From assembly GCA_024636215.1 (NCBI GenBank), contig JAGXHL010000001.1, positions 1 to 26,750 on the forward strand: a DNA stretch of 26,750 nt. Reading direction: 5' to 3'. Each line of letters begins with the position of its first letter. Position 1 is the first letter of the stretch. This DNA is from Deltaproteobacteria bacterium. Lineage in GTDB: Bacteria > Desulfobacterota > Desulfuromonadia > Desulfuromonadales > BM103. A program made the translations under genes and the position numbers. Shown piece by piece: positions 2,443 through 25,672 of the stretch. Under the pieces are notes generated by a model. It saw nothing but the letters and a program-made list of their open reading frames with translations, searched no databases and was not told the origin of the DNA.

Positions 2443-2461
2443 AATTCTAATGGTCCCAAAT

Positions 2462-2472
2462 ATGGTCTCCCC
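2462..2472 (+). repeat. IS1111 left sub-terminal inverted repeat
   Basis: ATGGTCTCCCC, a perfect inverted match to 3847-3857. It lies about 10 bp inside the inferred IS end at 2452, the sub-terminal placement typical of IS1111-group elements. Confidence 0.8.
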
Positions 2473-2744
2473 CCTATATGCAAGGGCTTTGTGATGAATG
2501 CGAGGGACAAGTTTGCTGCCATATATCCGGCCTCTTTATGACGGCTGTTAAACCGTCGGGCCTTAATGAATTACGCGCGCATCGTCCTAATCATAAGTTC
2601 GTTTTTTAGAAACCGATGGGACGGTCAGGTTTTCAATGCGCCGGTCTAACCTGTTTCGTCATTATTAATCACGTAGCCTTCGCAATTTCTGGTGGGAGCC
2701 TTCCTTTCGTTTTTCAGTAACTGCCTGTTGATCCGCTGATTAAG
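2473..2744 (-). ncRNA. Candidate seekRNA/bridge-RNA region of the IS
   Basis: This is the non-coding end downstream of the transposase, where IS1111-group elements encode their guide RNA. On the minus strand CGTCC (2623-2619) pairs with GGACG (2587-2583); alternatively CATCG (2618-2614) pairs with CGATG (2584-2580). Either stem closes a loop of about 30 nt containing two target-like segments: TTCTAA (2611-2606) and AACTTATGATTAG (2599-2587). The first equals the plus-strand flank left of the IS, the second equals the minus-strand reading across the rejoined site. A separate GACGG/CCGTC hairpin lies at 2540-2557. The exact RNA ends cannot be read from sequence. Confidence 0.65.
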
Positions 2745-3767
2745 CTAATTACGCAAGGTCGTTTCATATCTTGTATTGTACCTCAGAACAGCCCAGCCCA
2801 TACGCGCCATCTTGTTCGCCAACGCAACAACGGCTTTGTTCCATCCTCTTCTTTCTCGAATACGATTTATCCATCTACTCAAAGGGTCGTCCCGGTTGGC
2901 TGCGTGAAGAACGACGGTACGAGCGCCATGAACTAAGAGCTTACGCAGATATTTATCACCGCGCTTACTGATCCCCAGAAGAACATTTTTGCCGCCTGTG
3001 CTGTGCTGCCGAGGTACCAGGCCAAGTGATGCTGCGGCATGCCGCCCGCGAACATAAGCACTCCCATCACCAATCGTGCTGCGGAAAGCACTCGCAACAA
3101 TCGGCCCGAAACCAGGAATGGTTTGCAAGCGCTGGCAGGCGTCATCCTGTTTGCTCAGAATCTCCAACTCCTTTGCGTAAAACGCAATATGCTCATCCAG
3201 CTCAACAAGCTGCTCATAGCGTCGCGCCAATAGATTGCGAAACCGAAGGCTCAACCCATTGTCGGCATCTTCCAGCAGTTCCGGGATCTTCTTACGAAGA
3301 ACCGCCAGCCCTTTTGAAAAACTGATACCGTATTCGCCGAGCAAGCCCCGTGTCGAGTTGCTCAGGGCGGTGCGGTCACGAAGGCACTGGGAGCGCATCC
3401 GATGGATGGCTTGCATGTCGTGCTCTTCGGTTGTTTTGACGGCGACGAACGAAATCTTGGGTCTATCTAGTGATTCGGCAATAGCTCGCGCATCATTGTA
3501 ATCGTTCTTGTTGCCTTGAACCAATGGTTTCACGTGCTGAGCTGGTACCAGCTTTACGTCATGGCCAAGGGCACGCAATTCGCGTCCCCAGTAGTGGGCG
3601 GTAGCACAGGCTTCCATGCCGACCCGGCACGGTGGCAACTGAGTAAAGAAATGACGAACCTGATTGCGGCGCAGCATACGTTTCTTTACCTCTTTATTGT
3701 GTTCATTGAAACAGACAACGTGAAAAACGTTTTTTGCCAAGTCCAAGCCGACAGTGGTAATATTCAT
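2745..3767 (-). CDS. IS110-family (IS1111 group) DEDD transposase
   Basis: A 340-residue RNA-guided recombinase of IS110 type. The RuvC-like N-terminal domain shows the acidic tetrad Asp9 (GLDLAKN), Glu52 (GMEACATA), Asp89 and Asp92 (KNDYNDARA). The C-terminal Transposase_20 domain has IPGFGPIVASAF, and Ser267 lies in GISKRGDKYLR, the position of the proposed nucleophilic serine in this family. The C-terminal motif GLVPRQHSTGGK is typical of the IS1111 subgroup. Length is normal for the family, no frameshift is visible and all key residues are present, so it looks active. The start has a clear Shine-Dalgarno (GAGGAG, about 6 nt upstream of the ATG at 3767). Confidence 0.95.
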   Translation of the reverse strand: MNITTVGLDLAKNVFHVVCFNEHNKEVKKRMLRRNQVRHFFTQLPPCRVGMEACATAHYWGRELRALGHDVKLVPAQHVKPLVQGNKNDYNDARAIAESLDRPKISFVAVKTTEEHDMQAIHRMRSQCLRDRTALSNSTRGLLGEYGISFSKGLAVLRKKIPELLEDADNGLSLRFRNLLARRYEQLVELDEHIAFYAKELEILSKQDDACQRLQTIPGFGPIVASAFRSTIGDGSAYVRGRHAAASLGLVPRQHSTGGKNVLLGISKRGDKYLRKLLVHGARTVVLHAANRDDPLSRWINRIRERRGWNKAVVALANKMARMGWAVLRYNTRYETTLRN

Positions 3768-3846
3768 CTCGGTCTCCTCTCGTCTTACGTTGATGGTAAG
3801 TTACTTACTCTCCATCATGGCGCATAGACGCCGATTTGGATAGCGA

Positions 3847-3857
3847 GGGGAGACCAT
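3847..3857 (-). repeat. IS1111 right sub-terminal inverted repeat
   Basis: GGGGAGACCAT on the plus strand, a perfect inverted copy of 2462-2472, located 5 bp inside the inferred IS end at 3862. Confidence 0.8.
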
Positions 3858-3912
3858 TTCATCATAAGTTGATCCAACTCTAATGAAGATACAAAATCGG
3901 CAATTTTGGATA

Positions 3913-3940
3913 AGTCCCACAAACCCTGCATTCTGGGACT
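3913..3940 (-). terminator. Hairpin after the truncated gene
   Basis: AGTCCCA (3913-3919) pairs perfectly with TGGGACT (3934-3940), directly at the TGA stop of the minus-strand frame. The loop contains CAGGGTTTG, the motif found near other gene ends here. There is no good U tract, so efficiency as a terminator is uncertain. Confidence 0.45.
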
Positions 3941-4491
3941 CAACTACTCAAAATATTCAGCAAAGAGTTGGATTTATCTATCAACTTACCTCTTTCTTCG
4001 AATGAATCTACGTGCTCAAGAGCATGAAATATTTCAATAAATCGCTTTTTAATACGACGGAATTCAAATGAGCCATACAACCCTCTCATCCATTGAACCT
4101 CATCCTCTGTAATTTTTCTTCTGATTTCGAAAGGGAAGTCTTCTACATAATCAATTTCAGCAAAATTTGAGGAATGCCACATGTCATACTTCTGTACGTT
4201 TTCACCGAGTATAGTCGGGATTAGATACAGATTTGAAAGCATTGCTTCTCCAAACAGATATTTTGCATCACTGTCTTTCCCCATTCGATGTAGCATCAAA
4301 GCCCAGCAAATCTTCTGGATTGGTTCTCCTGCATCATCTGTAAATTCACTAGAATACCAGTCTAAATATGTTTGTGATTTATCCAAATCACCCAACATGA
4401 AGTAAAGGTAAAACAGTACGTAGCGCTTTCCACTGCCATCGTCTATAAATCCATAAGTTTTTTTCTTTTGTAAGCGCAGATTTATAGCCTG
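3940..4491 (-). pseudogene. N-terminally truncated tetratricopeptide-like hypothetical protein
   Basis: The minus-strand frame is open from 4491 (just after an in-frame TAA at 4492-4494) to the TGA at 3940. The first ATG at 4398 would give 152 residues, but the upstream in-frame translation (KKKTYGFIDDGSGKRYVLF, then YLYFMLGDLDKSQTYLDWY) reads as genuine protein continuous with the rest. The pattern of a helix ending LGDLDKSQTYLDWYSSEFTDDAGEP followed by ALMLHRMGKDSDAKYLF (given here as two pieces) resembles TPR-type helical repeats. I therefore read this as the C-terminal part of a larger gene whose 5' end is missing. No start codon with a ribosome site is seen upstream of 4398. Function is unknown. 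Confidence 0.5.
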
Positions 4492-5039
4492 TTATCAGCT
4501 TTTTAATTTACGGTTCTGTATCTGGAAAAACAAACATGCAACCTCATATATTCTGAGAGTAAAACCCGCCCCAAATGCAGCGTTCAATGGGACACCCGCC
4601 GCCCGCCGCTAGCGTAAATAAAAGAGACGATGGTTTCAGGAAGGAAAAGGGTCAGGCGGTCGTGGGTTGAACGAGAGGAGAAAAATTATCAGCCTATTCT
4701 CTCTTGCAATTCTCTCCCCGTAAAAACAAGTGATTGCGATGAGAACATGATCTGATACTGTTAATCCGCTTGTGTTCATTTGACATCAGATGGGGGTCGT
4801 TATGCTTGAATCCCCTTTCGGTTGAATCAACAAAGAATGGGTTCTCTTTTTATCGATGCGCAAAGTCAGCCATGTTTGTGACATGTCGCGATGGTCACGT
4901 TCTATGTCTCCTCGCGATACGATGATTAGGTGGACAGATACCTCCAACGCACCCTATATCACTCATTTTGAAATCGATCGAAAATCTGGTGAGTGTTCTT
5001 AATTTTGTATCATTGTAACGGTAAAAATGCCTCACTTGA
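4492..5039. other. Intergenic region, probably decayed or rearranged DNA
   Basis: No coding frame of useful length and no RNA gene is recognised. It contains the inverted 10-mer ATGGGACACC (4587-4596), matching 143-152 in opposite orientation; a C/G-rich stretch (4594-4612); a weak stem between GAGGAGAA (about 4674-4683) and TTCTCTC (about 4698-4705); and small palindromic stretches around 4872-4902. The lost 5' end of the neighbouring truncated gene suggests that a deletion or mobile-element event occurred here. Confidence 0.4.
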
Positions 5040-5067
5040 TTGGTTAGGCACGATATAGGTGTATACT
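5040..5067 (+). promoter_or_regulatory. Possible promoter of the NarL-type regulator
   Basis: TATACT (5062-5067) is a good -10. A weak -35, TTGGTT (5040-5045), lies 16 bp upstream; TTGATT at 5036 would be 20 bp away. The predicted start lies about 15 nt before the ATG at 5089. Confidence 0.35.
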
Positions 5068-6060: not shown

Positions 6061-8112
6061 ATGGGAATCAACGAAGACACGGGGCTATCAACAACTGTTG
6101 TCGAAGTGTGCGGATCACGGGTCGATGAGGGGTCGCAGAGACTTGACCATGAGCCTGATCTCTCCCGGATTGAACTGGAGACGCAGATGGCTGAGCTGCG
6201 TCGAGCTCAGGCGGAGCTTGAGTTGTCCCGGAATAAGTATGCCGAACTCTATGAATTTGCACCTGTCGGAAATTTCACCTTTGATACGCGTGGAGTGATA
6301 CGGGAGGTAAATCTTGCCGGTGCGCAATTGCTGGGGATAGAGAGAGGACTGCTGGCCAATAAATCTTTTATCAACTTTATTGCTGATGCCGACGGACGGG
6401 ACATATTTTCCGGCCACCTCAAAACTGTTTTGCAACGAAAGGAGATGCAGAAATGTGCCATCCGGCTCGGGGTTAAAGACGGCACGGTGATCTATGGTGA
6501 ACTCCAGAGCGTCGCTGTGGACAATGTCGGAAGCAAGGACGGTTATATCCTTTCCTCAATCGTTGATGGCACGGTTGGCAAGCAGCTGGAAACGGAAATC
6601 CAGGATGCTCGGGAATACGCCGAGAATATTGTCGAAACCGTGCGTGAGCCGTTGGTCGTGTTGAATTCCGACCTGAAGATCCTCACCGCCAACCCCAGCT
6701 TCTACGACACCTTCAAGGTCACGGCCAAGGAGACTATCGGCAAGTTCATCTACGATCTCGGCAACCGGCAATGGGACATTCCCAAGCTCCGGGTGCTCGT
6801 TGAAGAGATTCTCCCCCATGATACCGTGATCAATGGCTATGAAGTCGAGCATGATTTTCCCGGCATCGGGGCAAAGACTATTCTGCTCAATGCCCGGCAG
6901 ATTTTCCGGGAAGACATCGGTTCACACGTAATTCTTCTGGCCATGGAAGACATTACCGAACGCAAGCAGTTGGAAGCGAAAATCCAGGATGCCCGGGAAT
7001 TTGCCGAGAATATTGTCGAAACCGTGCGTGAGCCGCTGGTGGTACTGAATTCCGACCTGAAGATCCTCACCGCCAATCACAGTTTTTACGAGACCTTTAA
7101 AGTAACGGCCGAGGACACAATCGGCAGGTTCATCTACGATCTCGGTAACCGGCAATGGGACATTCCCAAGCTGCGGGCACTCTTTAAGAAGATCCTTCCT
7201 CTTGAAACCGTATTCAATGACTATGAAGTCGAACATGATTTCCCCAGTATCGGGCGCAAAATTATTCTGCTCAACGCCCGACAGATTTACCGGGAAAACA
7301 TCGGCTCACATATTATCCTGCTGGCCATGGAAGACATTACCGAACGGAAGAGGGTCAATGAGGAGATTCAGGTCCTCAACCAGGAACTGGAACAGCGGGT
7401 AATGAAGCGTACCTCTCAACTCCAGGGCGCGAACCAGGAGCTGGAGGCCTTTGCCTATTCGGTATCCCACGACCTGCGCGCGCCGCTGCGGGCCATGGGT
7501 GGCTTCAGCCAAGCCCTGATGGAAGATTTTGGCGACAAACTGGAGGCGGAGGCGCGCGACTATCTCAACGAGATCGTTATCGGTAGCCGACATATGGGCC
7601 AGTTGATAGACGGTCTGCTCACCCTGTCGCGCAGCACCCGCGGGGAGTTGCGCAGCGATCGGGTGGACCTTTCGGCAATGGCGAATCGTGTGCGCCTTGA
7701 GCTGGAGATGTTGGAGCCGCTGCGCCGGGTGGAGTGGCGGATTGAAGCCGGCCTGAGCGCTGGAGGGGATGCGCGCATGATCGAGGTCATCATGAGAAAC
7801 CTTCTCGGCAACGCCTGGAAGTACACCGGAAGCAAGACCGAAGCGATAATCCGTGTCTATATCGAAATGGAAGGGAGTACACGCTTTTATTGTGTCGCGG
7901 ATAACGGTGCCGGTTTCAATATGGCCCACGCCGAAAAACTCTTTCAACCGTTCCAGCGCCTCCACCGGCAGGAAGAATTCCCTGGAATGGGCATAGGTCT
8001 GGCCACGGCCCAGCGCATCGTGCACCGACATGGCGGCTTGATGCATGCGACAGGTACGCCTCATGAAGGGGCAATGTTTCGATTTTCACTGCCATACGGA
8101 GAAGAACCATAA
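6061..8112 (+). CDS. Cytoplasmic multi-PAS sensor histidine kinase
   Basis: A 683-residue soluble kinase with no transmembrane segment. Layout: short N-terminal coiled coil (about 35-60), a PAS domain (about 60-178), two nearly identical tandem PAS domains of the type with DLGNRQWDIPKLR and LLNARQI motifs (about 180-307 and 308-435), a linker coiled coil, HisKA with His470 (SVSHDLRAPLRAMGGF), and HATPase_c with NLLGNAWKYT, DNGAGF and GMGIGLA boxes. The catalytic part resembles bacteriophytochrome-type kinases, whose usual partner is a small Rcp1-like receiver, and one is encoded 16 bp downstream. The signal is unknown. The start is well supported: GGAGGG lies 7 nt before the ATG. It is the first gene of a compact plus-strand cluster. 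Confidence 0.93.
   Translation: MGINEDTGLSTTVVEVCGSRVDEGSQRLDHEPDLSRIELETQMAELRRAQAELELSRNKYAELYEFAPVGNFTFDTRGVIREVNLAGAQLLGIERGLLANKSFINFIADADGRDIFSGHLKTVLQRKEMQKCAIRLGVKDGTVIYGELQSVAVDNVGSKDGYILSSIVDGTVGKQLETEIQDAREYAENIVETVREPLVVLNSDLKILTANPSFYDTFKVTAKETIGKFIYDLGNRQWDIPKLRVLVEEILPHDTVINGYEVEHDFPGIGAKTILLNARQIFREDIGSHVILLAMEDITERKQLEAKIQDAREFAENIVETVREPLVVLNSDLKILTANHSFYETFKVTAEDTIGRFIYDLGNRQWDIPKLRALFKKILPLETVFNDYEVEHDFPSIGRKIILLNARQIYRENIGSHIILLAMEDITERKRVNEEIQVLNQELEQRVMKRTSQLQGANQELEAFAYSVSHDLRAPLRAMGGFSQALMEDFGDKLEAEARDYLNEIVIGSRHMGQLIDGLLTLSRSTRGELRSDRVDLSAMANRVRLELEMLEPLRRVEWRIEAGLSAGGDARMIEVIMRNLLGNAWKYTGSKTEAIIRVYIEMEGSTRFYCVADNGAGFNMAHAEKLFQPFQRLHRQEEFPGMGIGLATAQRIVHRHGGLMHATGTPHEGAMFRFSLPYGEEP
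6598..7365 (+). repeat. Tandem 384-bp duplication encoding two PAS domains
   Basis: Two head-to-tail copies begin at 6598 and 6982 (both ATCCAGGATGCYCGGGAAT), a period of exactly 384 bp or 128 codons. By eye many blocks are identical at the DNA level, including silent positions, indicating a fairly recent in-frame duplication inside the kinase gene. A more diverged relative of the same PAS type sits in the 1439-aa kinase on the other strand. Confidence 0.85.
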
Positions 8113-8128
8113 AGGGGGGGCGAAAGAC

Positions 8129-8572
8129 ATGAACGTCAACAAGTCAATACTGATGGTAGAAGATAACCCACAGGACGAAAAGCTGATGCTGCGCGCGTTG
8201 AGCAAGGTCAACCTGGCCAATCAGGTGGACGTGGTACGCGATGGGCAGCAGGCCCTCGATTACCTGTTCCGGGAGGGAGAGTTTGTCGGTCGTGAAGGGG
8301 GTGATCTCCCCGCCTTAGTGCTGCTCGACATCGGCCTGCCGCGCGTCAGCGGGCTTGAAGTCTTGAAGAGGCTGCGCGACGATCCGAGGACCCGTCTTCA
8401 GCCGGTGGTGATTTTAACATCTTCCGACGAGGAGCGGGACCGCCTGGCAAGCTATAAGGACGGCGCCAACAGCTTCGTGCGCAAACCTCTCGACTTCACC
8501 GAATTCGCCGAAACGGTAGCGCGTCTCGGCATCTACTGGATGGCTGTCAACAAACCGCCGCAAGGGGGATAA
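8129..8572 (+). CDS. Rcp1-like single-domain response regulator
   Basis: A 147-residue stand-alone receiver. It shows the acidic pair Glu11/Asp12 (MVEDNPQDEKL), phospho-acceptor Asp67 (LVLLDIGLPRVSG), the switch Ser/Thr (VVILTSSDEERD) and the conserved lysine in SFVRKPLDF. The longer beta3-preceding loop and the C-terminal YWMAVN segment match the Rcp1 family, which accepts phosphate from phytochrome-like kinases. The ATG at 8129 was chosen because GGGGGG lies about 9 nt upstream and the protein then begins just before the first beta strand; an in-frame ATG at 8045 lies inside the preceding kinase. It is probably the phosphate acceptor of the kinase encoded just upstream, and lacks an output domain. 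Confidence 0.93.
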   Translation: MNVNKSILMVEDNPQDEKLMLRALSKVNLANQVDVVRDGQQALDYLFREGEFVGREGGDLPALVLLDIGLPRVSGLEVLKRLRDDPRTRLQPVVILTSSDEERDRLASYKDGANSFVRKPLDFTEFAETVARLGIYWMAVNKPPQGG

Positions 8573-8575
8573 ACA

Positions 8576-10525
8576 ATGTCCGAACCGCTGAACATCCTGG
8601 TAGTTGAGGACTGCAATGCTGACTTCCTGATGGTTGTGCGCCACCTTAAACAGAACGGCCTGTCGGCCCGCTGTCGTCGTGTTGACACGCTTGACGCCCT
8701 GAAAGAAGCCACCGACAGGGAAAGTTGGGACCTGGTACTGTCCGACTACAATGTGCCTCAGCTTGATTTTCGGGAAACTTTGAACCTGTTGCAGAGAGCG
8801 CTCCCCGATTTGCCGATCCTAATGGTCACTGGTACCGTGGGTGAAGAAAAGGCGGTGGAACTCCTCAAGCTGGGGGTCTGCGACTTCGTGCTCAAGGAGA
8901 ATTTGGTCCGTCTGGTTCCGGCCATTGAGCGAAGCCTGAAGGAGACCTCGGAACGCAAGGCCAGAGTCGCAGCCGAGAGCGCCTTGGCAGAGAGCGAGGC
9001 CAAGTCGCAAAACATCCTGGACAATATCGGAATCGGTGTGGCTCTCATCAGTCCCAATATGGAGGTTCTTGAAATGAACCTTCTTATGCGTGAGTGGTTT
9101 CCTCTAGTAGACCCGAGTCAACGCTGCAGCTGTTACCGCGTGTTCAACGACCCTCCGCGCAATACGGTGTGTGACTATTGCCCGACCAAAAAAACACTGC
9201 AAGACGGACTGGTCCACGAAGAAATAACGCAAACGCCGCATGCCAGTGGGACGCGCAACTATCGTATCGTTTCATCTCCGATCACCAACGCGTCGGGTGA
9301 GGTTACGGCGGCGATAGAAATGGTTGAAGACATCACCGAGCGCCACAACTTGGAGGAGCAACTGCGGCAATCGCAGAAAATAGAAGCGATTGGAACCCTG
9401 GCCGGTGGTGTAGCTCATGACTTCAACAATATCCTTTCAGCAATATTCGGCTACTCTCAATTAATTTTGGATAAAGCGAAGGACAACGGCCCGATTGTAC
9501 AACATGTCGAAGAGATTATGACTGCCTCCAAAAGAGCTGCTGTTCTTACCAAGAGCCTCCTTGCATATAGCAGAAAGCAGGCCGTAACTCTGACCGTGAT
9601 CGATCTCAATGAGACAATAAAGGGAAATGAGTCTTTTCTCCGCAGACTGATCAGTGAAGATATTGAGTTAATCATAAACTGCCCTGAAGAGCCGCTCATC
9701 GTCTTGGTCGATCGCAGCCAGATTGAACAGGTGATCATGAACCTCGTCGCCAACGCACGGGACGCAATGCTTAATGGTGGCAAGATTTTAATCAAGACAC
9801 AGCCGGTAGCCCTGAGCCAAGAATTCGTCAATCTCCACGGATATGGCACACCAGGTTTATATGCCTTGGTTTCAATTACTGATAACGGCTTGGGCATGGA
9901 CAAGAAGACGCAGTCTCGGATATTTGAGCCGTTCTTTACTACGAAAGGGCCGGGACAAGGAACAGGGCTCGGTCTTTCGATGGCGTACGGAATTATCAAG
10001 AAACATGATGGATTCATCAATGTCTACAGTGAGCCTGGAACTGGAACCATCTTTAATATTTACCTGCCTATCGAACAGACCTCAGCGCTTTCAGAAATCA
10101 ATGAAGTACAGGCGGTCGCTCCCTTGCGGAGCGGGACCGAAACCATTTTGGTATGCGAGGATGACGCTGCTTTGCTGAGACTGTCAAAAAAAGTGCTGGT
10201 CCATTTCGGCTATCGGGTGATTGAGGCGGTTGACGGCCAGGACGCGGTCGACAAATTTGTTAAATATGGAGAAAGCATCGATCTCGTTATCCTCGATGCA
10301 ATCATGCCGAAAAAAAATGGCAAGCTGGCATGCGATGAGATGAGAATCATGCGTCCCGACCTGCAGGTGGTCTTTGTCAGCGGCTATGCGAGGGACGTTT
10401 TTGCGGAGAACACTCTATTTGATGAAAACACCGTATTCATCCAAAAGCCGGTTTTACCCGATGTCTTTTTGGACAGGATACGAGAGTTGCTGGACAAACG
10501 AACCGTTAAGGAAGGTGTAATTTGA
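8576..10525 (+). CDS. REC-PAS-HisKA-HATPase-REC hybrid histidine kinase
   Basis: A 649-residue soluble hybrid kinase: N-terminal receiver (about 5-125; Glu11/Asp12, phospho-acceptor Asp57 in LVLSDYNVP, lysine in FVLKE), PAS domain (about 140-258), HisKA of the [13 protein letters not shown] type with His281, HATPase_c ([24 protein letters not shown]), and a C-terminal receiver (about 522-640) with Asp574 (LVILDAIMP) and lysine in IQKP. The PAS domain contains a cysteine cluster, Cys184, Cys186, Cys199 and Cys202, which could bind a metal or respond to redox. It starts 3 bp after the preceding stop, with AAGGGGGAT as ribosome site overlapping that gene. The N-terminal receiver suggests it is itself controlled by upstream phosphotransfer. 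Confidence 0.94.
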
Positions 10526-11601
10526 ATATATTCAATGCTGTAATACTTTGCGTAGATGATGAGCCGAGCAACCTGAAACTATTGGAAAGGACGCTTGGCA
10601 GTTCCGGTTATCAGGTTCTCAAGGCTAATGATGGCCGGGAAGCTCTTGACATAATCGGCAGCCGGCCGGTCGATCTGGTGCTCACCGATGTCATGATGCA
10701 GGGAATCGACGGATTAGAGATCTGCCGACAGATCAAGGGGGAGGAAATCTACCGGCATATTCCGGTGGTCTTGATCACCGCCCTTGACTCCAAAATGGAC
10801 CGCATCCTCGGAATCGAGGCCGGAGCGGACGAATTTCTTACCAAGCCGTATGACCATGACGAGGTACTGGCACGGGTAAAAATGCTGCTCAGAACCAGAC
10901 ATCTCGATAAATTGCTTGAGGATGATGCGAGTGCCTATACGGTCCATTCTCTCGCCAGGGCCTCGGAAGTTAATGACGAGGACACCGGCGACCATGTTCT
11001 GAGAGTCGGAGAATACTGCGCTATTGTGGCTGAGCGGCTCGGCCTTGCGGAACAGTGGGTTCGGTCCATCAAACTGCAGGCAACCCTGCACGATGTCGGC
11101 AAGGTACATATACCGTCATATATTCTTAAAAAGCCGGGTAAGCTCACCCCGGAAGAGTGGGATATCATGAGACGTCATCCTGAGATGGGAGCGAAGATTA
11201 TCGGCGACCATCCGAAGTTCGCAATCGCCCGGCAGATCGCGCTCTCCCACCATGAACGATGGGACGGGGGCGGCTATCCTTTCGGCCACGCCGGGGAGCG
11301 GATTCCCCTTGAGGGAAGAATCATGAATATCGCCGACCAGTATGATGCCTTGCGGAATGCGCGGGTCTACAAACCGGCCTTCGACCACGCCACGACGGTG
11401 AAAATCATCACCGAGGGGGACGGGAGAACAATGCCGGATCATTTCGACCCGCAGGTGTTGAATGCCTTTGTGGAAACCGCAATATTGTTCGAGGAGGTGT
11501 ATAAAAAATTTACTGCCAATTCCGGCCTGACTGAACAGGAAGGCATTCGTCCGGTAGCCTGTGCCCAACAGCTCAAACATTTACCTCCGATTTTGTCTTA
11601 G
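10522..11601 (+). CDS. REC-HD-GYP response regulator, probable c-di-GMP phosphodiesterase
   Basis: A 359-residue RpfG-like protein. The receiver (about 5-122) has Asp12/Asp13, phospho-acceptor Asp56 ([10 protein letters not shown]) and lysine in FLTKPY. The HD-GYP domain (about 140-325) has His190-Asp191 in LHDVGK, His243-His244 in [12 protein letters not shown] and the downstream NIADQYDAL motif, all expected for an active metal-dependent phosphodiesterase that hydrolyses c-di-GMP. It begins with TTG whose bases overlap the TGA of the hybrid kinase (TTGA, 10522-10525), preceded by GGAAGG, implying translational coupling. It is the likely output of the plus-strand phosphorelay. Confidence 0.94.
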
Positions 11602-11621
11602 TACAGATTGAGTGACCAATT

Positions 11622-14060
11622 ATGAAATTCCTGTCATCCCTACGAAACATCCCGTATTTACGAACCGTTATCGTTGCTATTATTCTGACCCTCTCATCCG
11701 GCTGGATTCTCACAAGCTTTCTCACCGGGGTTGCGGAAAAGAATCTCAAAGATGAGATCAACCGGGAGGCGAATGTTGTTGCCTTTTCCCTCCATGACAA
11801 TCTGGGTGAAGTAGAAAATGCGGCCATGGCACTAAGCCATTCAGAACAGCTTGAAGAGTTTCTCTCTACGGGCAGCCCGGTTGATCTGGAACGCGCAACT
11901 AAGCTTTTGGAGCGGGTCAACCGCAGTCTTGGGATGTCCGTATGCTATCTTCTGGATGATAACGGCCTAGTCGTTGTCTCATCGAACAGAAGTGAAAAAG
12001 ACAGCTTTGTCGGAAATAACTATGCCTTCAGGCCCTATTTTACAGGCGCAATATCAGGTCGACTTGCCACGTATTTTGCGGTTGGCGGCACAAGCAACCA
12101 GAGGGGGTATTATGCAGCGATGCCGATTGTCAGCACGAGTGGATCAATAACTGGAGTTATTGTTACCAAGAGGAACATCGCCCCGCTTGGAGCACTCTTC
12201 AGGAACTACACCAACGCTTTTCTGGTCAGTCCCGAGGGCATTATCTTTGTCTCCAGCAGGGAAAAAGTCCTGTTCCATAGCTTGTGGCCGATTTCTGAAA
12301 AGAGTCGAGCCGAGCTGTTGGCATCGCAGCAATTCGGAAATTTAACATTTAAACCGCTGCTGGATGCGGAACCGCAGACAGGGGATTTCGTCAGCTTTGA
12401 GAACCAGAAAAATTATCTTCAGCGTTTGCCGTTCGGCAAGGACGGCTGGACTCTTGTAATATCGAAACAGCCCACTATAATCGCTGATTACCGTTTGTTC
12501 GGCCTTTCGATCTCCACGGTGTTTGCTCTCCTGATTTTCTTCTTCCTCAATGCACTATTCAATAAAAGCAAGTCACTGGAGATGGCAAGAAAACTGCTCA
12601 AATCCAGGAGTGACTGGGATCTGACGTTCGACACAGTGCCGGACCTCATCGCGATCATTGATGCAAATTACCACATATCCAGTATGAACAGGGCAATGGC
12701 GGAACGCCTGGGTATCTCCCCGCAGGAGGCGGTCGGCATGCATTGCTATGAACTGCTGCATGGCTCTCAGGAACCGTACTCCTTCAGTCCTCATCAAAGA
12801 ATGCTTGAATCGGGAGCGACTGGATCTGAGTCCCATTTTATAAAGGCCCTGAACGGTGATTTTGTCATTTCTGTAACTCCGCTCAAGTTAAAAGATGGTT
12901 CAATTGAGTCGTCAATTCAGGTGATGCACGATGTCAGTGAGCTGAAACAGCTGGAGCGGTCACAGAAAGAGTATGCGCAACGGCTCAAATACGTGCTGGA
13001 AGGGTCAAACGATGCCACCTGGGAGTGGAACATTATTACCAACCAAGGGGTTCTGAATAAGAAATATTACGAAATGATCGAATATACCCCTGGAGAAGTG
13101 GACATAACGCTTGAATTTTTCCTGAAAACCATTCATCCCGATGATCTGGACGGTGTGCAGCGGCGGGTTCAAGACAATGTGGAGGGGAAAACCAAAAGTT
13201 ATGAAGCGCATTACCGTATGGTCACAAAGTCCGGGAAAGCGAAGCATGTCATGGGGCGGGGTAGGATCGTCAAACGTGACGAAGAAGGCCATCCGATCAT
13301 AATGGCCGGGGTTATTACCGACATCTCGGAAATAAAACGGCTCAGCGAGGAAGTCAACAGGATCAGTAATCTGGAATCGATCGGCCTCCTCTCCGGCGGA
13401 CTGGCCCATGACTTTAACAATGTGTTGAACGTAATTTACGGCAACATAACTTTCGTCAAGATGCTTGCTGAGGGCAACGCGACCTTTGTTGAGCCTCTCA
13501 TGGATGCGGAAGAAGCGTGTGAGCACGCCAAGGAACTCGGCACCCGTCTGCAGGCCTTTTCGCAAGGGGACATTCCGCTCAGGGAGCCGATAGCGCTTCC
13601 CGCTCTCATTGAGCTTGCCGCAGAAGCTCTTTTCAAGGGTTCACATATCTCGCACACCATATCCGCAGCAGATGACGTTCACCTACTAGAAGCAGATCCA
13701 CGCCAGAGCAGACAGCTGTTTGAAAATTTGCTGGCCAATGCAAAAGATGCCATGCCCGAGGGGGGGACAGTCACAATCGACATTAAAAAATGCGAAGTCG
13801 ATAGCAATAAAGGGCTGTCTCTCAGGTCAGGCCCCTATGCCTGTATTACAATCCAGGACGACGGCAGAGGTATCCCTGATGCGATTCTTCCGAAGGTCTT
13901 CGATCCCTATTTTTCGACCAAGGACACCTACAGTCAAAGAGGGATGGGGCTTGGACTCTCGATATGCCATGCCATCATGAAGAGGCATAACGGACAAATT
14001 TTCGTAGAATCCACCGTGGGAATCGGTACTAAAGTTACGTTGTATCTGCCTGCTCCGTGA
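11622..14060 (+). CDS. Membrane Cache-PAS sensor histidine kinase
   Basis: An 812-residue membrane sensor kinase. A transmembrane helix (about 14-36) precedes an extracytoplasmic double-Cache domain (about 40-285) with the DctB-like stretch YAFRPYFTGAISGR and a typical YYAAMPIVS strand. A second transmembrane helix (about 290-312), two PAS domains (about 330-445 and 455-575), HisKA with His596 (LSGGLAHDFNNVLN) and HATPase_c (NLLANAKDAM, DDGRGIP, GMGLGLS) follow. DctB-type Cache domains bind small carboxylates or amino acids; the ligand here is not identifiable. It starts 20 bp after the HD-GYP gene, with GAGTGA upstream of the ATG, and is probably the last gene of the operon, adding an external input. 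No cognate receiver follows because the IS1182 element lies downstream. Confidence 0.93.
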   Translation: MKFLSSLRNIPYLRTVIVAIILTLSSGWILTSFLTGVAEKNLKDEINREANVVAFSLHDNLGEVENAAMALSHSEQLEEFLSTGSPVDLERATKLLERVNRSLGMSVCYLLDDNGLVVVSSNRSEKDSFVGNNYAFRPYFTGAISGRLATYFAVGGTSNQRGYYAAMPIVSTSGSITGVIVTKRNIAPLGALFRNYTNAFLVSPEGIIFVSSREKVLFHSLWPISEKSRAELLASQQFGNLTFKPLLDAEPQTGDFVSFENQKNYLQRLPFGKDGWTLVISKQPTIIADYRLFGLSISTVFALLIFFFLNALFNKSKSLEMARKLLKSRSDWDLTFDTVPDLIAIIDANYHISSMNRAMAERLGISPQEAVGMHCYELLHGSQEPYSFSPHQRMLESGATGSESHFIKALNGDFVISVTPLKLKDGSIESSIQVMHDVSELKQLERSQKEYAQRLKYVLEGSNDATWEWNIITNQGVLNKKYYEMIEYTPGEVDITLEFFLKTIHPDDLDGVQRRVQDNVEGKTKSYEAHYRMVTKSGKAKHVMGRGRIVKRDEEGHPIIMAGVITDISEIKRLSEEVNRISNLESIGLLSGGLAHDFNNVLNVIYGNITFVKMLAEGNATFVEPLMDAEEACEHAKELGTRLQAFSQGDIPLREPIALPALIELAAEALFKGSHISHTISAADDVHLLEADPRQSRQLFENLLANAKDAMPEGGTVTIDIKKCEVDSNKGLSLRSGPYACITIQDDGRGIPDAILPKVFDPYFSTKDTYSQRGMGLGLSICHAIMKRHNGQIFVESTVGIGTKVTLYLPAP

Positions 14061-14276: not shown

Positions 14277-14351
14277 CAGTCTGTCGGACTTTTCGTCCGT
14301 AAAATGTTAAACTCGCCGGGTATTAAACATTCCCGCGAAGGTGAAAAAATT

Positions 14352-15710
14352 ATGAGTGATACGTTCCGCCAAGTTGATCGAGATACCCTGTTTCTGCTGC
14401 CGCCCTCAATGGACGACTGGTTGCCTGAGGGACATCTGGCTCGTTTCATCGTAGAGATTGTCGCTCAACTTGATCTCACTATGATCAAGGCTGCTTATGC
14501 TGGCCGGGGTTCCAGGGCTCACCATCCCGAGATGCTGCTGGCCCTGCTTTTCTACGGTTACGCTACCGGGGTTTTCTCCAGTCGCAAGCTGGAGAAGGCA
14601 ACCTATGATTCCGTGGCGTTTCGCTACATCGCCGCCAATGATCATCCCGACCACGATACCATTGCCGCATTTCGCAAACGTTTTCTTTCTCAGTTGGCGC
14701 CGCTCTTCATTCAGATTTTGCTGATTGCCCAGCAAATGGGATGCCTGAAGCTGGGCAAAGTCAGTCTCGATGCCACCAAGATCAAGGCCAATGCCTCCAA
14801 ACATCGCGCGCTGAGCTGGAAGCATGCCTGCAAACTCGAAGCCCAGATCAAAGACGAGGTTGAAGACCTGTTGCGGCAGGCCGAAGAAGCTGACCACAGC
14901 GAAAGGTCCGATGGTCTGGATATTCCGGCTGAACTGACTCGCCGCGAAGAACGCCTGACCGCTATTGCCACCGCCAAGGCTGAAATCGAACGACGGGCCG
15001 ATTTGCGCCACGCTGAAGAGCAGGCCGAGTACGTGAAAAAACTGGCCAAGCGACAAGCCAAAGAGCAAGAGACCGGTAAAAAGTCCCGAGGGAAACAACC
15101 TAAGCCGCCAACGCCCGGCCCTCGGGATAAAGATCAGGTCAACCTCACGGATAACGAGTCGCGGATCATGCCTGTCTCCGGTGGTGGTTTTGACCAATGT
15201 TACAACGCTCAGGCCAGCGTCGATGTCGAGACAATGCTGATTGTCGGTCAACACCTCAGTCAGAATACCAACGACAAACAGGAACTTAAGCCTGCTCTTG
15301 AGTCCTTGACGGCGTTGCCGGACAACCTGGGAACCGTTGACGGTCTGTTGGCTGATGCCGGTTACTTCAGCGAGGCCAATGTTGAAAGTTGTCTGGGGGA
15401 GCAGATCCTTCCCTTTATCAGTGTCCTCCGCGATGCACACAACCAGAGCCTCAAAGAACGTTTTGCCGAGCCAGAGCCTTTACCCGAGGGTGCCGATGCC
15501 GTCACGCAGATGAAGCATCGCTTGAAGACTCAGGCTGGCCGAGCTATTTACGCCAAGCGAAAATGCACCGTCGAACCGGTCTTCGGCATCATCAAGGCCG
15601 TGATGGGCTTCCGTGAATTCCTGCTCCGCGGGGTGGAGTCTGTCCGCGGCGAGTGGAATCTGGTGTGCATGGCCTGGAACCTGAAGCGGTTACATGTTCT
15701 GGCGGCATAA
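14352..15710 (+). CDS. IS1182-family DDE transposase
   Basis: A 452-residue transposase. The N-terminal DUF772-type region (FRQVDRDTLFLLPPSMDDWL, then HHPEMLLALLFYGYATG) is followed by the catalytic DDE domain with Asp140 (VSLDATKIKA), Asp335 (LLADAGYFS) and Glu408 (CTVEPVFGIIK). A charged, helical insert (about 170-260) rich in Lys, Glu and Arg lies between the first and second Asp, as usual in this family. The ATG at 14352 was chosen for its GAAGGTG ribosome site 8 nt upstream; an in-frame ATG at 14304 has none. No stop or frameshift interrupts it. Confidence 0.94.
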   Translation: MSDTFRQVDRDTLFLLPPSMDDWLPEGHLARFIVEIVAQLDLTMIKAAYAGRGSRAHHPEMLLALLFYGYATGVFSSRKLEKATYDSVAFRYIAANDHPDHDTIAAFRKRFLSQLAPLFIQILLIAQQMGCLKLGKVSLDATKIKANASKHRALSWKHACKLEAQIKDEVEDLLRQAEEADHSERSDGLDIPAELTRREERLTAIATAKAEIERRADLRHAEEQAEYVKKLAKRQAKEQETGKKSRGKQPKPPTPGPRDKDQVNLTDNESRIMPVSGGGFDQCYNAQASVDVETMLIVGQHLSQNTNDKQELKPALESLTALPDNLGTVDGLLADAGYFSEANVESCLGEQILPFISVLRDAHNQSLKERFAEPEPLPEGADAVTQMKHRLKTQAGRAIYAKRKCTVEPVFGIIKAVMGFREFLLRGVESVRGEWNLVCMAWNLKRLHVLAA

Positions 15711-19394: not shown

Positions 19395-20456
19395 TCAGAG
19401 AGAAGGTCTTATTTCCCCAACACTGTCATCACTGTGTGTTTCAAAGATATCCGCAAAAACATCAGTGGTCTCCTCAAAAGCAGCCAGTACTGCCGGGTCA
19501 AAATGCTCCGGTATTGTGCGACCATCACCCTTGATGATAATCGCCATGGTTTTTTGCTGATCAAAAGCGGGCTTGTACGGCCGTTTGCTGCGCAGGGCAT
19601 CGTACTGGTCCGCAATGTTCATAATGCGCGCTGTCAGGGGGATCTCCTCGCCCTCCAAACCATTGGGATAGCCTTTCCCGTCCCAACGTTCATGGTGGCA
19701 TCCTGCAATCTCAGTGGCGACCTGCAAAATAGGTGACGGAGAGCCATGCAGTATTTTAGCGCCAATTTCGGCGTGGGCTTTCATAATATTCCACTCTGTC
19801 TCGTCCAAGGGCCCCTGTTTCAAGAGAACCGCATCCGGAATAGCGACTTTACCGACATCATGCATTGGTGAGGCATAGAAAATTGCGTCGCAAAACGCCT
19901 TATCCATACCCATTTTTGCGGACAGTTCCCGAGTATAGTAACTTATCCGTTTAATGTGGGCGCCAGTTTCTTCATCCTTACACTCAGACGCCAGAGTCAG
20001 TCGGTGGATGGTGTCGATATATCCCTTGCGCAGTTGTTCCGTCCGTTCGGTCACCAATTCCTCCAGGTGTTCCTCGTGGAGATGCAGGTTCATATGGGTG
20101 CGGACTCTGGCAAGCACTACCGCCGGGCTGAAGGGCTTGATAATGTAGTCAACCGCACCCAGTTCCAGCCCCATTGTTTCGTCCTCGACCGCCCCTTTGG
20201 TAGTGATAAACAAAATCGGGATATGGCGGGTCTTTTCATTTGCTTTGAGCCGGCTACAGACTTCATAGCCGTCCATCTCAGGCATCATGATGTCGAGCAG
20301 GATCAGGTCCGGACGGTTTTCCGCATTCGCCCGTTCAAGGGCCTCGGCTCCGTTTGCTGCAATAATTATCTGGTATTCATTTTTGAGAAGGTGGTTCAAA
20401 GTTTTAATATTCAGCGGCGTATCATCAACAATGAGTATTCTTTTCTTTTTAGCCAT
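19395..20456 (-). CDS. REC-HD-GYP response regulator, probable c-di-GMP phosphodiesterase
   Basis: A 353-residue protein of the same layout as the plus-strand one. The receiver (about 5-122) has Asp11/Asp12, phospho-acceptor Asp55 (LILLDIMMPEMDG) and lysine in IIKPF. A helical linker (about 125-150) leads to the HD-GYP domain, with His199 in MHDVGK, CHHERWDGKGYP and [10 protein letters not shown]. All catalytic motifs are intact. Its start has GAGGGG about 7 nt before the ATG. It lies 42 bp downstream of the 1439-aa hybrid kinase, whose HPt domain is well placed to phosphorylate it. This pairing is inferred from adjacency. Confidence 0.94.
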   Translation of the reverse strand: MAKKKRILIVDDTPLNIKTLNHLLKNEYQIIIAANGAEALERANAENRPDLILLDIMMPEMDGYEVCSRLKANEKTRHIPILFITTKGAVEDETMGLELGAVDYIIKPFSPAVVLARVRTHMNLHLHEEHLEELVTERTEQLRKGYIDTIHRLTLASECKDEETGAHIKRISYYTRELSAKMGMDKAFCDAIFYASPMHDVGKVAIPDAVLLKQGPLDETEWNIMKAHAEIGAKILHGSPSPILQVATEIAGCHHERWDGKGYPNGLEGEEIPLTARIMNIADQYDALRSKRPYKPAFDQQKTMAIIIKGDGRTIPEHFDPAVLAAFEETTDVFADIFETHSDDSVGEIRPSL

Positions 20457-20498
20457 TATTTATCCCCTCATCTTTGTCCAGTTATTGTGCTGCACAGT

Positions 20499-23400
20499 TT
20501 AAATGCTGGTGTTTTTTTCTGAAAATTTTTGTGGAGCGTCCGACGCTGTATCTAGTTCTTGCAGAAGCTTGAGCGCCGCCTTAAAGTCCAGAGATTCGAG
20601 CAGTCGTGCAATCTGAGCCGTCTGCACCGGATAGCCGGCAGCAAGCGCCGGCTGGATTTCAAGAAAAGCCTCTTCGGCATCCATGTCGCCCCGCTCCAGC
20701 AAACTTCCCAATGTTTTTATTTTTAGCCTAAGGACGCTGATATCAACGGCTACACCCGCTCCAGTCACACTCGTCGTAGCGGCCGGTAGCGCCTGTTGCA
20801 GAGCCGCCAATAGAGTCTCTAATGTTTGGCCGGTGGAATCCAGATGCATTTGCACGTTTTCTGGTTTTTCTTTCATAGCGGATTCCAGTTCCAAGGCCTT
20901 TTCCTGCAAGCCGCACGCGCCGAGGCTACCGGCAACCCCCTTCAGGGTATGGGCAAGGCGCATTGCCGTTTTCAGCTCCCCACTTTGCAGCGCAACTGAA
21001 ACCTGCTCCGTAAAGGCACCAAAGTCTTGTTGGAAATCTCGCAACAACTGCAAGTAAAGGTTATCATTGCCGAGCACATGCTGCAACCCGGCCTCAAGGT
21101 CAATACCGGGGATATTCTCGGGGAAATCCACCGGCGCAAATGTTTCTGGTTGTGGTCGTTGGTTTTTTGCGCAGCCTCCAACCCATGGTTTGATCCAGTA
21201 TAGCAGGCAGGCATAGAATTCTTCCGGATCAAACGGCTTGATGATATGGTCGTTCATGCCTGCCACAAGACTTTTCTCACGGTCCCCGACCAAGGCATTA
21301 GCCGTCACGGCAATGATCGGAAGATCGGTAAAGCGGCGGTCTGATCTGATACGCCGCGTTGCCTCATAGCCATCCATAATCGGCATTTGAATATCCATCA
21401 GCACCAGATCATACGTTGTGCTGCCGCCGATAATCATCGACACGGCTTCCTCGCCGTTGGCAGCCGTTTCCACCCCGGCACCGGTATCTTTCAAAAGTTC
21501 GATCGCCAGTTGACGGTTGATCACGTTGTCTTCAACAAGAAGAACACGCGAACCGGTGAAATCGAAAGATTGCTCTTTTTCTTGTCTGCCCATGGCACCA
21601 ATCGACGTATACTGTTCCACGTCGCTGGCCTGCCCAATTCCAAACCAGGCCGAGAAGCTGAAGTTGCTCCCTCGCCCAAGGATGCTCTCACACCAGATTT
21701 CGCCTTCCATCAGCTCTACCAGTTGCTTTGAAATTGACAGCCCCAATCCGGTGCCGCCAAACTTACGTGTCGTGCTTCCGTCCGCTTGAATGAAAGGGCG
21801 GAAAAGCTTGTTGATCTGCTCTTCCGAAATGCCGATGCCGCTGTCGCGCACGGTGAATTTCAGTTGCACACGCTCGTTTTCCTGCTTCAGCAGCGAGATT
21901 TCAAGCTGTACATCCCCATGCTCGGTGAATTTAACGGCATTGTTCAACAGGTTGACTAGTATTTGGACAAGTCGGTGTGGGTCACCAACCAGAAAAGCAG
22001 CAGCTTCGGGCGTGGTTTTGACAATCAGATTCAAACCCTTATCCAGAGCCCTTTCCTGAACCATGCAAGTCGCATTGGCAATTATGATACCCAGCCTGAA
22101 TGGTATCTGTTCCAAATTCAACTGATTTGCTTCTATCTTGGAAAAGTCGAGGATGTCGCTAATAATATTGAGCAGCAACGACCCGGAGCTGTGGATTTTT
22201 CCAATAAAATCCTGTTGGTGGGGGGAAAGGTTGGTCTTCATCATTAGATCGGAAAAACCGATTATCGCATTAAGCGGCGTGCGGATTTCATGGCTCATAT
22301 TCGACAGGAATTCTGATTTTGAACGGTTGGCAATATTGGCCAGGTCGCGGGCTTTGACAAGTTTCTTTTCTGCTATTTTGCTAACGGTAATATCGTGGTA
22401 GGACCAGACTCGGCCCACAATCTCATCGTCTATTCTTTGTGGTTGCGAATAACGTCTAAAAATCCTGCCGTCGGCAGTCAGAACCGTATCGGTACTTGAT
22501 TCCCCCGGGTGTTCATATAAATCGGTGACTCTGTTAATGAACTCTACAGGTTGGGTCACCTGCGAAGCAACGTGGTCGAATACGGCTTTGTACACTCTAT
22601 CTGCGATGATTTCTGCCGGGATGTGCCAGAGATCTATGAATTTCTGATTCAAACAGGTAATGCGTCCACTCAAGTCAACCACAAGGATGGCGTCAGCCGT
22701 TGCTTCGAGGGTCGCGTTCAGCAAGGAGAGGGATGATTTACGGGCCGTATCCCACTGATTACGCTCAGTGATATCGCGGGCAATGCTCAGCACCCCGATA
22801 ACTTCGCCGGCATGGTTGTACGCCGGAGTCTTACGGGTCTCAGCGAAGATGGTGTGTCCATCATCGGCAAAAGTGAACGATTCCTCGTTATTGATGGGAT
22901 GGCCTGCCACGATGACATTGCGGTCATTTGCGCGGAAAAAGTCGGCCAATTCCTCGTCCACAAAGTCGTAGTCGGTCTTGCCGATTATCTCCTTCTCTTC
23001 GGCTCCTAAGAAACGCTCGAACTCTTTGTTGCAATTTAAATACACACCGTCAGTATCTTTTAACCAGACCAGGTCTGGAATGTGATTCATTAACGCCAGT
23101 AGCTGGTTTTTCTGGTTTGCCAGTTCCTCTTCCGCCTGCTTGCGGTCGGTGATGTCTTCGATGGCCAGAAGGATGATCCGCTCTTTTCCCAACACTTGGT
23201 GAATCTGCCGGGCATTCAGGAGCATGGTGCGCCTGCCAATGGTGGCAAACTCGTGCTCAACCTCATAGTTGTCAAAGGTTGTCTTTTGCGGAAGGATGGT
23301 TTCCAGCAGTTCCCGCAGCTTGGGGATATCCCACTGTTTATTGCCCAAGTCATAGACAAGTTGCCCTATGGTCTCTTCAGGTTTTACCTTGAAGAAGTCA

Positions 23401-24818
23401 TAGAAAGAACGGCTGGCCGTGACCACCCGGAGATCTTGATCCAAAGAAATCAAGGATTCACGCACGGTGTTGATGATGCTCTCAGCAAATTCACTGACTT
23501 CATCTGCAATTTTTTTAGTAACCGCCAGTTCTTTCCGGGTCTTTTCCTGGCCGGCTTCTCTCGCTCTACGCTCGGTTACGTCTGTGAAGAAACCCACAGC
23601 GCATTCCCGACCATTGATGATGGAGACGACAGCGGAGATTTTCGCATAGAAAACGGTGCCGTCTTTCCGCAGGCACGGAAGTTCGAAAGGCAGGGTCTTC
23701 CCTTCGTGACTCACAAACCCGAAGCTGGTCTTCACCAGTCCCAGTTGGTCCGCCGGGTGAATGTCCCCTATATTCAACAGCAGCAACTCTGTCTCTGAAT
23801 ATGCTAACATCCGGCAGATAGATGGGTTGGCATAGCTAAACCGCCCCGTTTCAAGATCTACCACCAGGATACCCTGGATGCTTCCCTCGAAAATTACCCG
23901 GTATCTATCCTCCGACTCCCGTAGCGCCACTTCCGCCAGCTTACGGTCGGTGATATCGCGACAAATACTCATTACCGCCGGTTGATCATCCCATTGAATC
24001 AGCCGCGCACTCACTTCAGTCGGGATACGTGAACCGTTCTTGCGCTGATGGACTGTCTCAAACGTGAAATGACCCTGTTCCCTCAACCGTGCCAAACGCT
24101 CCGGAATGTGTTGACACTCCTCCGGTGAATCCACTTGACTGACCAAGGTGGCTAACAGTTCTTTTTGCGTGTATCCAAGTCTCTCCAGAACAACCGTATT
24201 GCAAGCCAGGATTCTGGCTTGCATGTCGTGAATAAAAATCCCGTCGTTGACACTTTCAAACAGAAGTTTATATTTTTGATTGATCAGTTCAAACTCTTTA
24301 CTGGCCTTTTTCGCTTCATCAACCTTGTCCTCAAGGGTACAAACCAATTCTTCAAGTTGCTGCTGATTGTCAAGTACACTCTGCTCGGCCTGTTTACGGT
24401 CAGTAATGTTCTCATGTGAAATCACCGCATAGTGAGCGCCGGCAATGTGCAGCGGATGAACCTTGCAGGAGAACCAGCGTTGTTCGTCAGGAGAATGGCA
24501 GGGGTATTCTTTGACGAATTCCGGCAGGGTGCCGGCAATGACAGCATTGATACCTGCAACAGATTCCTCCGCGTCCTCTTTATCCGCTACAGTGGCTGTT
24601 CTGCAAGCATCCAGATAATTAATGCCTTCGCAGATTGTTTTTTTATCAGCGTTATTTTCTGTTCCAAACGAATTCCAGGCACGATTGGCCTTAATGATCG
24701 TTCCCTCTGCGTCAACCACGCAAACTGACGCGCTTAATCCATCGAGAGTGGCGCGAAGGAACTGTTCTTGCTCAAGGAGAGATTCTTCCGCCTTCGATTT
24801 AATTAGATTCAAGGACAT
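20499..24818 (-). CDS. Multi-PAS hybrid histidine kinase with REC and HPt
   Basis: A 1439-residue soluble kinase with a complete internal phosphorelay. Six PAS domains in order (about 17-145, 185-300, 305-425, 440-565, 575-690, 695-815), a coiled coil after the first, then HisKA with His843 (MSHEIRTPLNAIIGFSDLM), HATPase_c (NLLNNAVKFT, DSGIGI, GTGLGLSI), a receiver with Asp1142 (LVLMDIQMPIMDG) and an HPt domain with His1290 (AHTLKGVAGSLGA), as in BarA/ArcB-type kinases. The fourth PAS is the DLGNKQWDIPKLR type also duplicated in the plus-strand kinase. A C-terminal tail of about 90 residues is unassigned. The ATG at 24818 has no good Shine-Dalgarno at normal distance, which fits unusual translational control. 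The REC-HD-GYP gene follows after 42 bp. Confidence 0.93.
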   Translation of the reverse strand: MSLNLIKSKAEESLLEQEQFLRATLDGLSASVCVVDAEGTIIKANRAWNSFGTENNADKKTICEGINYLDACRTATVADKEDAEESVAGINAVIAGTLPEFVKEYPCHSPDEQRWFSCKVHPLHIAGAHYAVISHENITDRKQAEQSVLDNQQQLEELVCTLEDKVDEAKKASKEFELINQKYKLLFESVNDGIFIHDMQARILACNTVVLERLGYTQKELLATLVSQVDSPEECQHIPERLARLREQGHFTFETVHQRKNGSRIPTEVSARLIQWDDQPAVMSICRDITDRKLAEVALRESEDRYRVIFEGSIQGILVVDLETGRFSYANPSICRMLAYSETELLLLNIGDIHPADQLGLVKTSFGFVSHEGKTLPFELPCLRKDGTVFYAKISAVVSIINGRECAVGFFTDVTERRAREAGQEKTRKELAVTKKIADEVSEFAESIINTVRESLISLDQDLRVVTASRSFYDFFKVKPEETIGQLVYDLGNKQWDIPKLRELLETILPQKTTFDNYEVEHEFATIGRRTMLLNARQIHQVLGKERIILLAIEDITDRKQAEEELANQKNQLLALMNHIPDLVWLKDTDGVYLNCNKEFERFLGAEEKEIIGKTDYDFVDEELADFFRANDRNVIVAGHPINNEESFTFADDGHTIFAETRKTPAYNHAGEVIGVLSIARDITERNQWDTARKSSLSLLNATLEATADAILVVDLSGRITCLNQKFIDLWHIPAEIIADRVYKAVFDHVASQVTQPVEFINRVTDLYEHPGESSTDTVLTADGRIFRRYSQPQRIDDEIVGRVWSYHDITVSKIAEKKLVKARDLANIANRSKSEFLSNMSHEIRTPLNAIIGFSDLMMKTNLSPHQQDFIGKIHSSGSLLLNIISDILDFSKIEANQLNLEQIPFRLGIIIANATCMVQERALDKGLNLIVKTTPEAAAFLVGDPHRLVQILVNLLNNAVKFTEHGDVQLEISLLKQENERVQLKFTVRDSGIGISEEQINKLFRPFIQADGSTTRKFGGTGLGLSISKQLVELMEGEIWCESILGRGSNFSFSAWFGIGQASDVEQYTSIGAMGRQEKEQSFDFTGSRVLLVEDNVINRQLAIELLKDTGAGVETAANGEEAVSMIIGGSTTYDLVLMDIQMPIMDGYEATRRIRSDRRFTDLPIIAVTANALVGDREKSLVAGMNDHIIKPFDPEEFYACLLYWIKPWVGGCAKNQRPQPETFAPVDFPENIPGIDLEAGLQHVLGNDNLYLQLLRDFQQDFGAFTEQVSVALQSGELKTAMRLAHTLKGVAGSLGACGLQEKALELESAMKEKPENVQMHLDSTGQTLETLLAALQQALPAATTSVTGAGVAVDISVLRLKIKTLGSLLERGDMDAEEAFLEIQPALAAGYPVQTAQIARLLESLDFKAALKLLQELDTASDAPQKFSEKNTSI

Positions 24819-25589: not shown

Positions 25590-25643
25590 TTTTCCACCCT
25601 GAGCATAACGCAATCCATAAACCATCTAAATATCAATTTGATG

Positions 25644-25672
25644 AGTATAATCGATGCGATTCGCTACTACAA
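25644..25672 (-). promoter_or_regulatory. Candidate ihfA promoter
   Basis: -35 TTGTAG (25672-25667), exactly 17 bp, and -10 TATACT (25649-25644), giving an untranslated leader of about 50 nt before the ATG at 25589. The -10 is close to consensus, the -35 weaker. Confidence 0.5.

Follow-up and report, generated by a model that had tools for sequence, protein, structure and literature searches.

Can the guides, the core and the exact ends of an RNA-guided insertion sequence all be read from one inserted copy and its two flanks? The question is raised by an element in a 26,750-nucleotide stretch of DNA from a Deltaproteobacteria bacterium (contig JAGXHL010000001.1; the window means this whole stretch). 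A target should be readable from a single insertion because two loop segments of the element's RNA, addressing opposite target strands, meet at a 2-bp core. The original prediction placed this core at an AT found at both 2450-2451 and 3861-3862 and joined the flanks there into CTAATCATAAGTT. Its general claim, an IS1111 element with a bridge RNA or seekRNA whose two loop segments for opposite strands meet at a 2-bp core, was borne out by the anatomy and by covariation of guides with flanks, and the two AT dinucleotides and the joined sequence are as it described them. The core, the right end and one of the guides are, however, better placed elsewhere. We regard it as very likely that this is an IS1111-group element with a two-loop RNA downstream of its gene, the arms overlapping at a core TG, and that it entered the corrected site derived below by RNA-guided insertion.

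The element, its transposase and its RNA

The features are collected in Table 1. The transposase scored 325.5 bits against NCBIfam NF033542 (IS110 RNA-guided transposase; cut-off 140), and its Pfam domains are DEDD_Tnp_IS110 and Transposase_20. Six aligned transposases all share D9, E52, D89 and D92, and the sequence GLVPRQHSTG conforms to the IS1111 motif GL-P----S(t)G, of which TG is an accepted variant according to the available part of PMC11187229. The non-coding stretch 2459-2744 follows the transposase stop, with only ∼97 bp upstream of the start, as in IS1111 elements; the RNA region is thus downstream of the gene and not upstream, as in the IS621 type of the IS110 group. The subterminal repeats are perfect over 11 bp (11-13 bp in IS1111 elements) and are extended by TGATGAA (7 bp, left) and ATT (3 bp, right), the 7/3 arrangement of IS1111, with the extension ends placed from the guide register and the empty sites of relatives. 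The ends of the whole element are also backed by the subterminal repeats, the family guide register and these empty sites.

Table 1. Positions of the element and its parts in the window
Feature	Position	Strand	Basis or remark
Whole IS1111-group element	2459..3864	-	1406 bp including one core copy; ends by published 7-bp left / 3-bp right rule
Transposase, 340 aa, DEDD + Transposase_20 domains	2745..3767	-	Pfam 77.4 and 58.1 bits
Left subterminal inverted repeat ATGGTCTCCCC	3847..3857	-	
Right subterminal inverted repeat GGGGAGACCAT	2462..2472	-	perfect complement of left repeat
Core TG, left junction (AACTTA/TG/ATGAAATGG)	3863..3864	-	
Core TG, right junction (CCATATT/TG/GGACCATTAG)	2457..2458	-	
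Bridge/seekRNA region as aligned with relatives (predicted extent)	2500..2683	-	16-RNA alignment
Target loop 5' arm GUCCCAU	2616..2622	-	complementary to ATGGGAC of the target top strand, including the core
Hairpin between the two target arms, containing UUCUAA	2600..2615	-	
Target loop 3' arm AACUUAUG	2592..2599	-	letters identical to upstream flank, core included
Probable donor loop 5' arm UUCAUUA (against left end ATGAA)	2564..2570	-	position in consensus; covariation by eye only
Probable donor loop 3' arm GAUAUAUGG, containing AUAUA-UG	2519..2527	-	core base agreement
TTGCAT, -35-like box of predicted circle-junction promoter	2478..2483	-	17-bp spacing to TTTGAT across predicted junction

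A transposase search of the genome collection gave 32 loci, and a search in 14 of those genomes, chosen as carriers, matched in all 14; two overlapping samples of 395 genomes from a single phylum each included three genomes with a match, and 136 genomes of one order contained ten. The closest named transposase relative found is from a Desulfobulbaceae MAG (82%), followed by Desulfobulbaceae, Geobacteraceae or Geobacter MAGs (73-75%) and then by Gammaproteobacteria. A pattern made of loop and ends returned 34 rows that differ in loop or flanks, one of them the window, and missed some relatives, among them L001, L019 and L020. A near-identity search of plasmids with the element gave no match, and viral contigs gave two candidate stretches, neither of them a relative.

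Sixteen RNAs were aligned, and their consensus structure has 31 pairs; for 13 of these, one or more of the sequences differ at both paired bases. The structure combines an outer stem with two loops: the target loop, in which a hairpin stands between the two arms, and a second one with arms resembling UUCAU and GGAUAUA. Folding of the window RNA did not stand out clearly from that of shuffled sequences (z -1.82, with 11 of 200 shuffles folding as well, and z -0.90, with 29 of 200), a point against our reading, and single-RNA folding was dropped as proof by itself. An Rfam scan at gathering thresholds returned two tRNAs only. The second loop is probably the donor loop and would carry the same core as the target loop: its 3' arm reads AUAUA-NG, where N equals that of the 3' target arm in each of the 19 elements compared. 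We infer its role from this agreement at the level of the core; pairing of the loop with the joined ends beyond the core was uneven, as judged by eye. The window's right end reads CATATT where 23 other elements have CATATA and therefore mismatches the donor arm at one base, which we count against our reading.

Elsewhere in the window, an IS1182-family transposase gene (14304-15710, + strand; NCBIfam 356.8 bits, cut-off 270) has no flanking inverted repeats of 14 bases or more, so that this second element may be truncated. Many long ORFs read as sensor kinases or response regulators (347-2377, 6061-14060, 19395-24818); for the kinase at 347-2377, CHASE, PAS, HisKA and HATPase domains were found by family search, the others being called from reading only. 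An IHF-alpha-like gene (25305-25625, - strand; 124 bits, cut-off 111) lies near tRNA-Arg(ACG) (25867-25943) and tRNA-Ser(GCT) (26511-26600), all within 25305-26600 on the - strand.

Guide arms and flanks across the family

Across the family, the flank that immediately follows CATAT tends to reappear as its reverse complement in the 5' arm of the target loop, and the flank preceding the left end tends to recur unchanged in the 3' arm. The window carries GUCCCAU and then AACUUAUG, i.e. the arm complementary to the top strand lies 5' of the other, which is the IS1111 order. We compared arms with flanks in 24 elements distinct in their loops, out of the 34 rows. The mean longest matches were 6.17 (5' arm) and 6.54 (3' arm), against 3.38 and 3.76 with the flanks permuted, and none of 5000 permutations reached the signal of either arm. 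Adding the three missed relatives named above (n=27) gave 6.30 and 6.52 against 3.31 and 3.68, again with 0 of 5000. The window ranks first for both arms.

An element's own flank was the best or joint best for 17 of the 24 downstream arms and 15 of the 24 upstream arms, with the window among both. It was beaten for seven downstream arms (L008, L012, L016, L022, L047, L060, L063) and nine upstream arms (L006, L009, L011, L012, L060, L064, L066, L067, L071), and both sets are counted against our reading. In 19 of the 24, including the window, the longest downstream match falls in one and the same register; L012, L022, L047, L067 and L071 deviate. We then looked at single positions in 19 close elements (L068 was left out of 20, here and in the core comparison below); in this table, which includes three rows set by hand, identity with the cognate flank from -1 to -6 was 0.95, 0.89, 0.89, 0.95, 0.63 and 0.16, position -6 doing no better than with permuted flanks, and from +1 to +7 it was 0.84, 0.89, 0.95, 0.95, 0.74, 0.56 and 0.50. 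The window itself matches at six of six upstream positions and at +1 to +4 and +7 downstream; its mismatches at +5 and +6 weigh against our reading.

The original prediction had expected loops to covary with flanks in other copies, and they do, but at other positions than the ones it chose. It took the whole 13-mer CTAATCATAAGTT as a guide; the sequence does have an exact copy at 2587-2599, though not all of that copy is guide. Its other guide, UUCUAA (2611-2606), does equal the flank at 2445-2450, but it belongs to the hairpin that the arms enclose, and this hairpin does not follow the flanks in the family: the mean longest match was 3.13 compared with 3.08 after permutation, and 1203 of 3000 permutations were as high (n=23). 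The second guide would instead be GUCCCAU (2622-2616). No element of the 23 has a longer hairpin match than the six bases of the window, and matches of at least six occur in only 6 of 506 non-cognate pairs, about 1 in 84. We take it for an uncommon coincidence, and nevertheless count it against our reading.

The core, the right end and the empty sites

Under the 7/3 rule the window reads AACTTA/TG/ATGAA-ATGGTCTCCCC ... GGGGAGACCAT-ATT/TG/GGACCATTAG. The pre-insertion site that fits, on the element strand, is AACTTA-TG-GGACCATTAG in place of CTAATCATAAGTT, and TG, not AT, fits as its core, both by the cores of relatives and by the guide register. The left and right cores of 20 close elements are CG/CG in eight, TG/CG in seven, TG/TG in four and CG/AG in one. 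The 3'-arm core is TG in 4 of 19, the window included, and all four have TG in both target arms, at both junctions and in the donor arm. In the other 15 the 3'-arm core is CG, with a right core of CG in 14 and AG in one; the 5'-arm core of these 15 is CG in 13 and TG in two. The single AG and the two TG count against our reading. The seven with unequal TG/CG cores (L060, L063, L064, L066, L067, L068, L071) have T in the left core where the guide has C.

Occupied and empty sites of a relative bear directly on the ends. Genome G443 holds five copies with a transposase 64% identical to that of the window (L067, L073-L076), all of them in a palindromic repeat that is present, with at most one mismatch, at 24 places in G443 and 124 in G444, where L068 is also inserted in it; fifteen places were fetched per genome. 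Two unoccupied repeats, L101 and L105, have the same left flank as the occupied L074. The empty sites read ...CCGGACAGACGTGTGGG, and the occupied site reads ...CCGGACAGATGAGATGG on the left and ...CCATATACGACGTGTGGG on the right; this puts the end of the element directly behind CATATA or CATATAC and not ∼8 bp further out. L074 retains the target A at its left junction, whereas the other four G443 copies and L068 have a T just before GAT; at that base, nine unoccupied G443 repeats have C (seven) or A (two) and never T. A core GA, suggested by a first look at these empty sites, was replaced by NG after more junctions had been compared. Together with the family guide register and the end rule, the relatives' empty sites place the right end of the window element at 2459 and not at 2450-2452, whereas the original prediction had placed it about 8 bp beyond this.

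No empty allele of the window's own site was found, which we count against our reading. A search of 136 genomes with the region 3863-5060 gave short partial matches in five genomes, none at the insertion point; the neighbouring kinase was found in 0 of 8 genomes (a search without positive control), and against plasmids its best hit among the matches listed had 34.9% identity.

How strong, then, is the case for a core AT at 2450-2451/3861-3862, with AACUUAUGAUUAG and UUCUAA as guides and CTAATCATAAGTT as the empty site? The exact 13-mer and 6-mer exist, and the window's hairpin match tops the 23 elements. No stretch of the joined flanks longer than CTAATCATAAGTT recurs in the element, and among 61 joins at shared dinucleotides near the ends the AT join was best (13, then 11, 11 and 9), two further joins that keep the same flank scoring 11. 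With random flanks and one join per trial, a junction-spanning match of at least 12 occurred in 0 of 2000 trials and one of 11 twice. However, the flank 3861-3870 by itself already accounts for ten of the 13 letters (AACTTATGAT, element strand), so that only TAG rests on the join, and this TAG sits in a scaffold motif (A/T)AGG found in all 16 aligned RNAs (TAGG in 4, AAGG in 12). The AT core would also require a right extension of 10 bp rather than 3 bp, would leave the in-register downstream match GTCCCAT unused, and makes a guide of a hairpin that matches the outer flank at chance level across the family. It also loses the promoter spacing: after a join at AT, no hexamer at 16-18 bp agrees with the -10 consensus at more than two of its six positions. 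On the family guides, the hairpin, the scaffold and the promoter spacing we rejected the AT core with its UUCUAA guide and consider it very improbable; the TG core and its end are supported by the 7-bp/3-bp rule, the relative's occupied and empty sites and this promoter spacing.

An explanation compatible with the insertion at TG is that the match of guides and flanks is a remnant of an old insertion by an element that is now immobile. The window holds a single copy, its transposase has T257 where four of the six aligned transposases have S, and its junction -10 box matches at just four of six positions. Against this, the reading frame is full length, the ends, guides and core are intact, and TG is accepted as a variant of the IS1111 motif; we consider immobility unlikely.

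The predicted circle junction and known systems

The insertion at TG, for which anatomy, guide-flank covariation, register, core covariation and a relative's empty and occupied sites were computed, suggests the following course. The non-coding region downstream of the transposase would encode a bridge RNA or seekRNA with two loops, whose target arms overlap at TG. On excision from the donor site the element most likely became a circle joined at the core, and this joining would form a promoter; recombination guided by the RNA would then have brought it into AACTTA-TG-GGACCATTAG (window + strand CTAATGGTCC-CA-TAAGTT). That the RNA is made and bound by the recombinase, that a circle forms and that strands are exchanged is inferred from published relatives.

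When the ends are joined, 17 of 18 close elements have TTGCAA, 17 bp and then TACGAT or TATGAT (TTTGAT in the window), L060 having 18 bp; the -35-like box is TTGCAG in L066 and TTGCAT in the window. The window's -10 box has only 4 of 6 consensus bases, a further point against our reading. Five of six Shewanella-type rows (L009, L012, L014, L016, L047) have TTGCAA, 16 bp and TATAAT, a perfect -10 box; the right end of the sixth, L011, is duplicated. In the arrangement TTGCAA, 17 bp, TA-NG-AT, the core occupies positions 3-4 of the -10 box. This may, as a tentative suggestion, couple promoter strength with the choice of recombination site in this lineage. Left junctions might then keep the donor T (TATGAT, nearer the consensus) despite C in guide and target, although we think this somewhat doubtful, as we do that core mismatches are resolved, or retained by selection, in the promoter's favour, with the donor core partly uncoupled from the guide. 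Promoter selection may be what keeps the left-core T.

As read from sequence, the anatomy, arm order and end extensions are those already published for IS1111 in the available part of PMC11187229. There, ISEc11, ISPa11 and ISKpn4 (Siddiquee et al. 2024) likewise have the RNA downstream of the gene, similar subterminal repeats, 7-bp/3-bp extensions, the top-strand-complementary arm 5' and arms overlapping in the target. Guide and target of the window element differ from theirs, and the window element, known from sequence alone, is likened to them by description. Target and donor loops had also been predicted for IS1111 elements, as the accessible part of PMC11208160 states. The IS621 bridge RNA (IS110 group) likewise has two loops of two arms each that share a 2-bp core, in the portions available of PMC11208160 and PMC11208158; the second base of its core is almost invariant and the first variable (PMC11208158), resembling the near-fixed second and variable first base of the window's lineage. 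It differs, in the same portions, in having the RNA upstream of the gene, the reverse arm order and a core CT rather than NG. The IS621 protein is weakly similar to the window transposase (E 0.0018), as is the C-terminal domain of the ISCro4 transposase (solved structure 9t56; E 0.0018), a comparison of proteins only. Titles and abstracts found on newer work, most subscription journals being outside this scope, named no core dinucleotide for IS1111.

The exact 13-mer thus misled on both the core and the end, which the family register puts right. The correction is of consequence for elements that are read from single copies, and according to the available part of PMC11187229 the ends on record may be wrong in a number of cases. 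The set assembled here offers empty-site controls ready-made within one genome, and provides a position-by-position map of guides and cores for the Desulfobulbaceae, Geobacteraceae and gammaproteobacterial relatives of this element.
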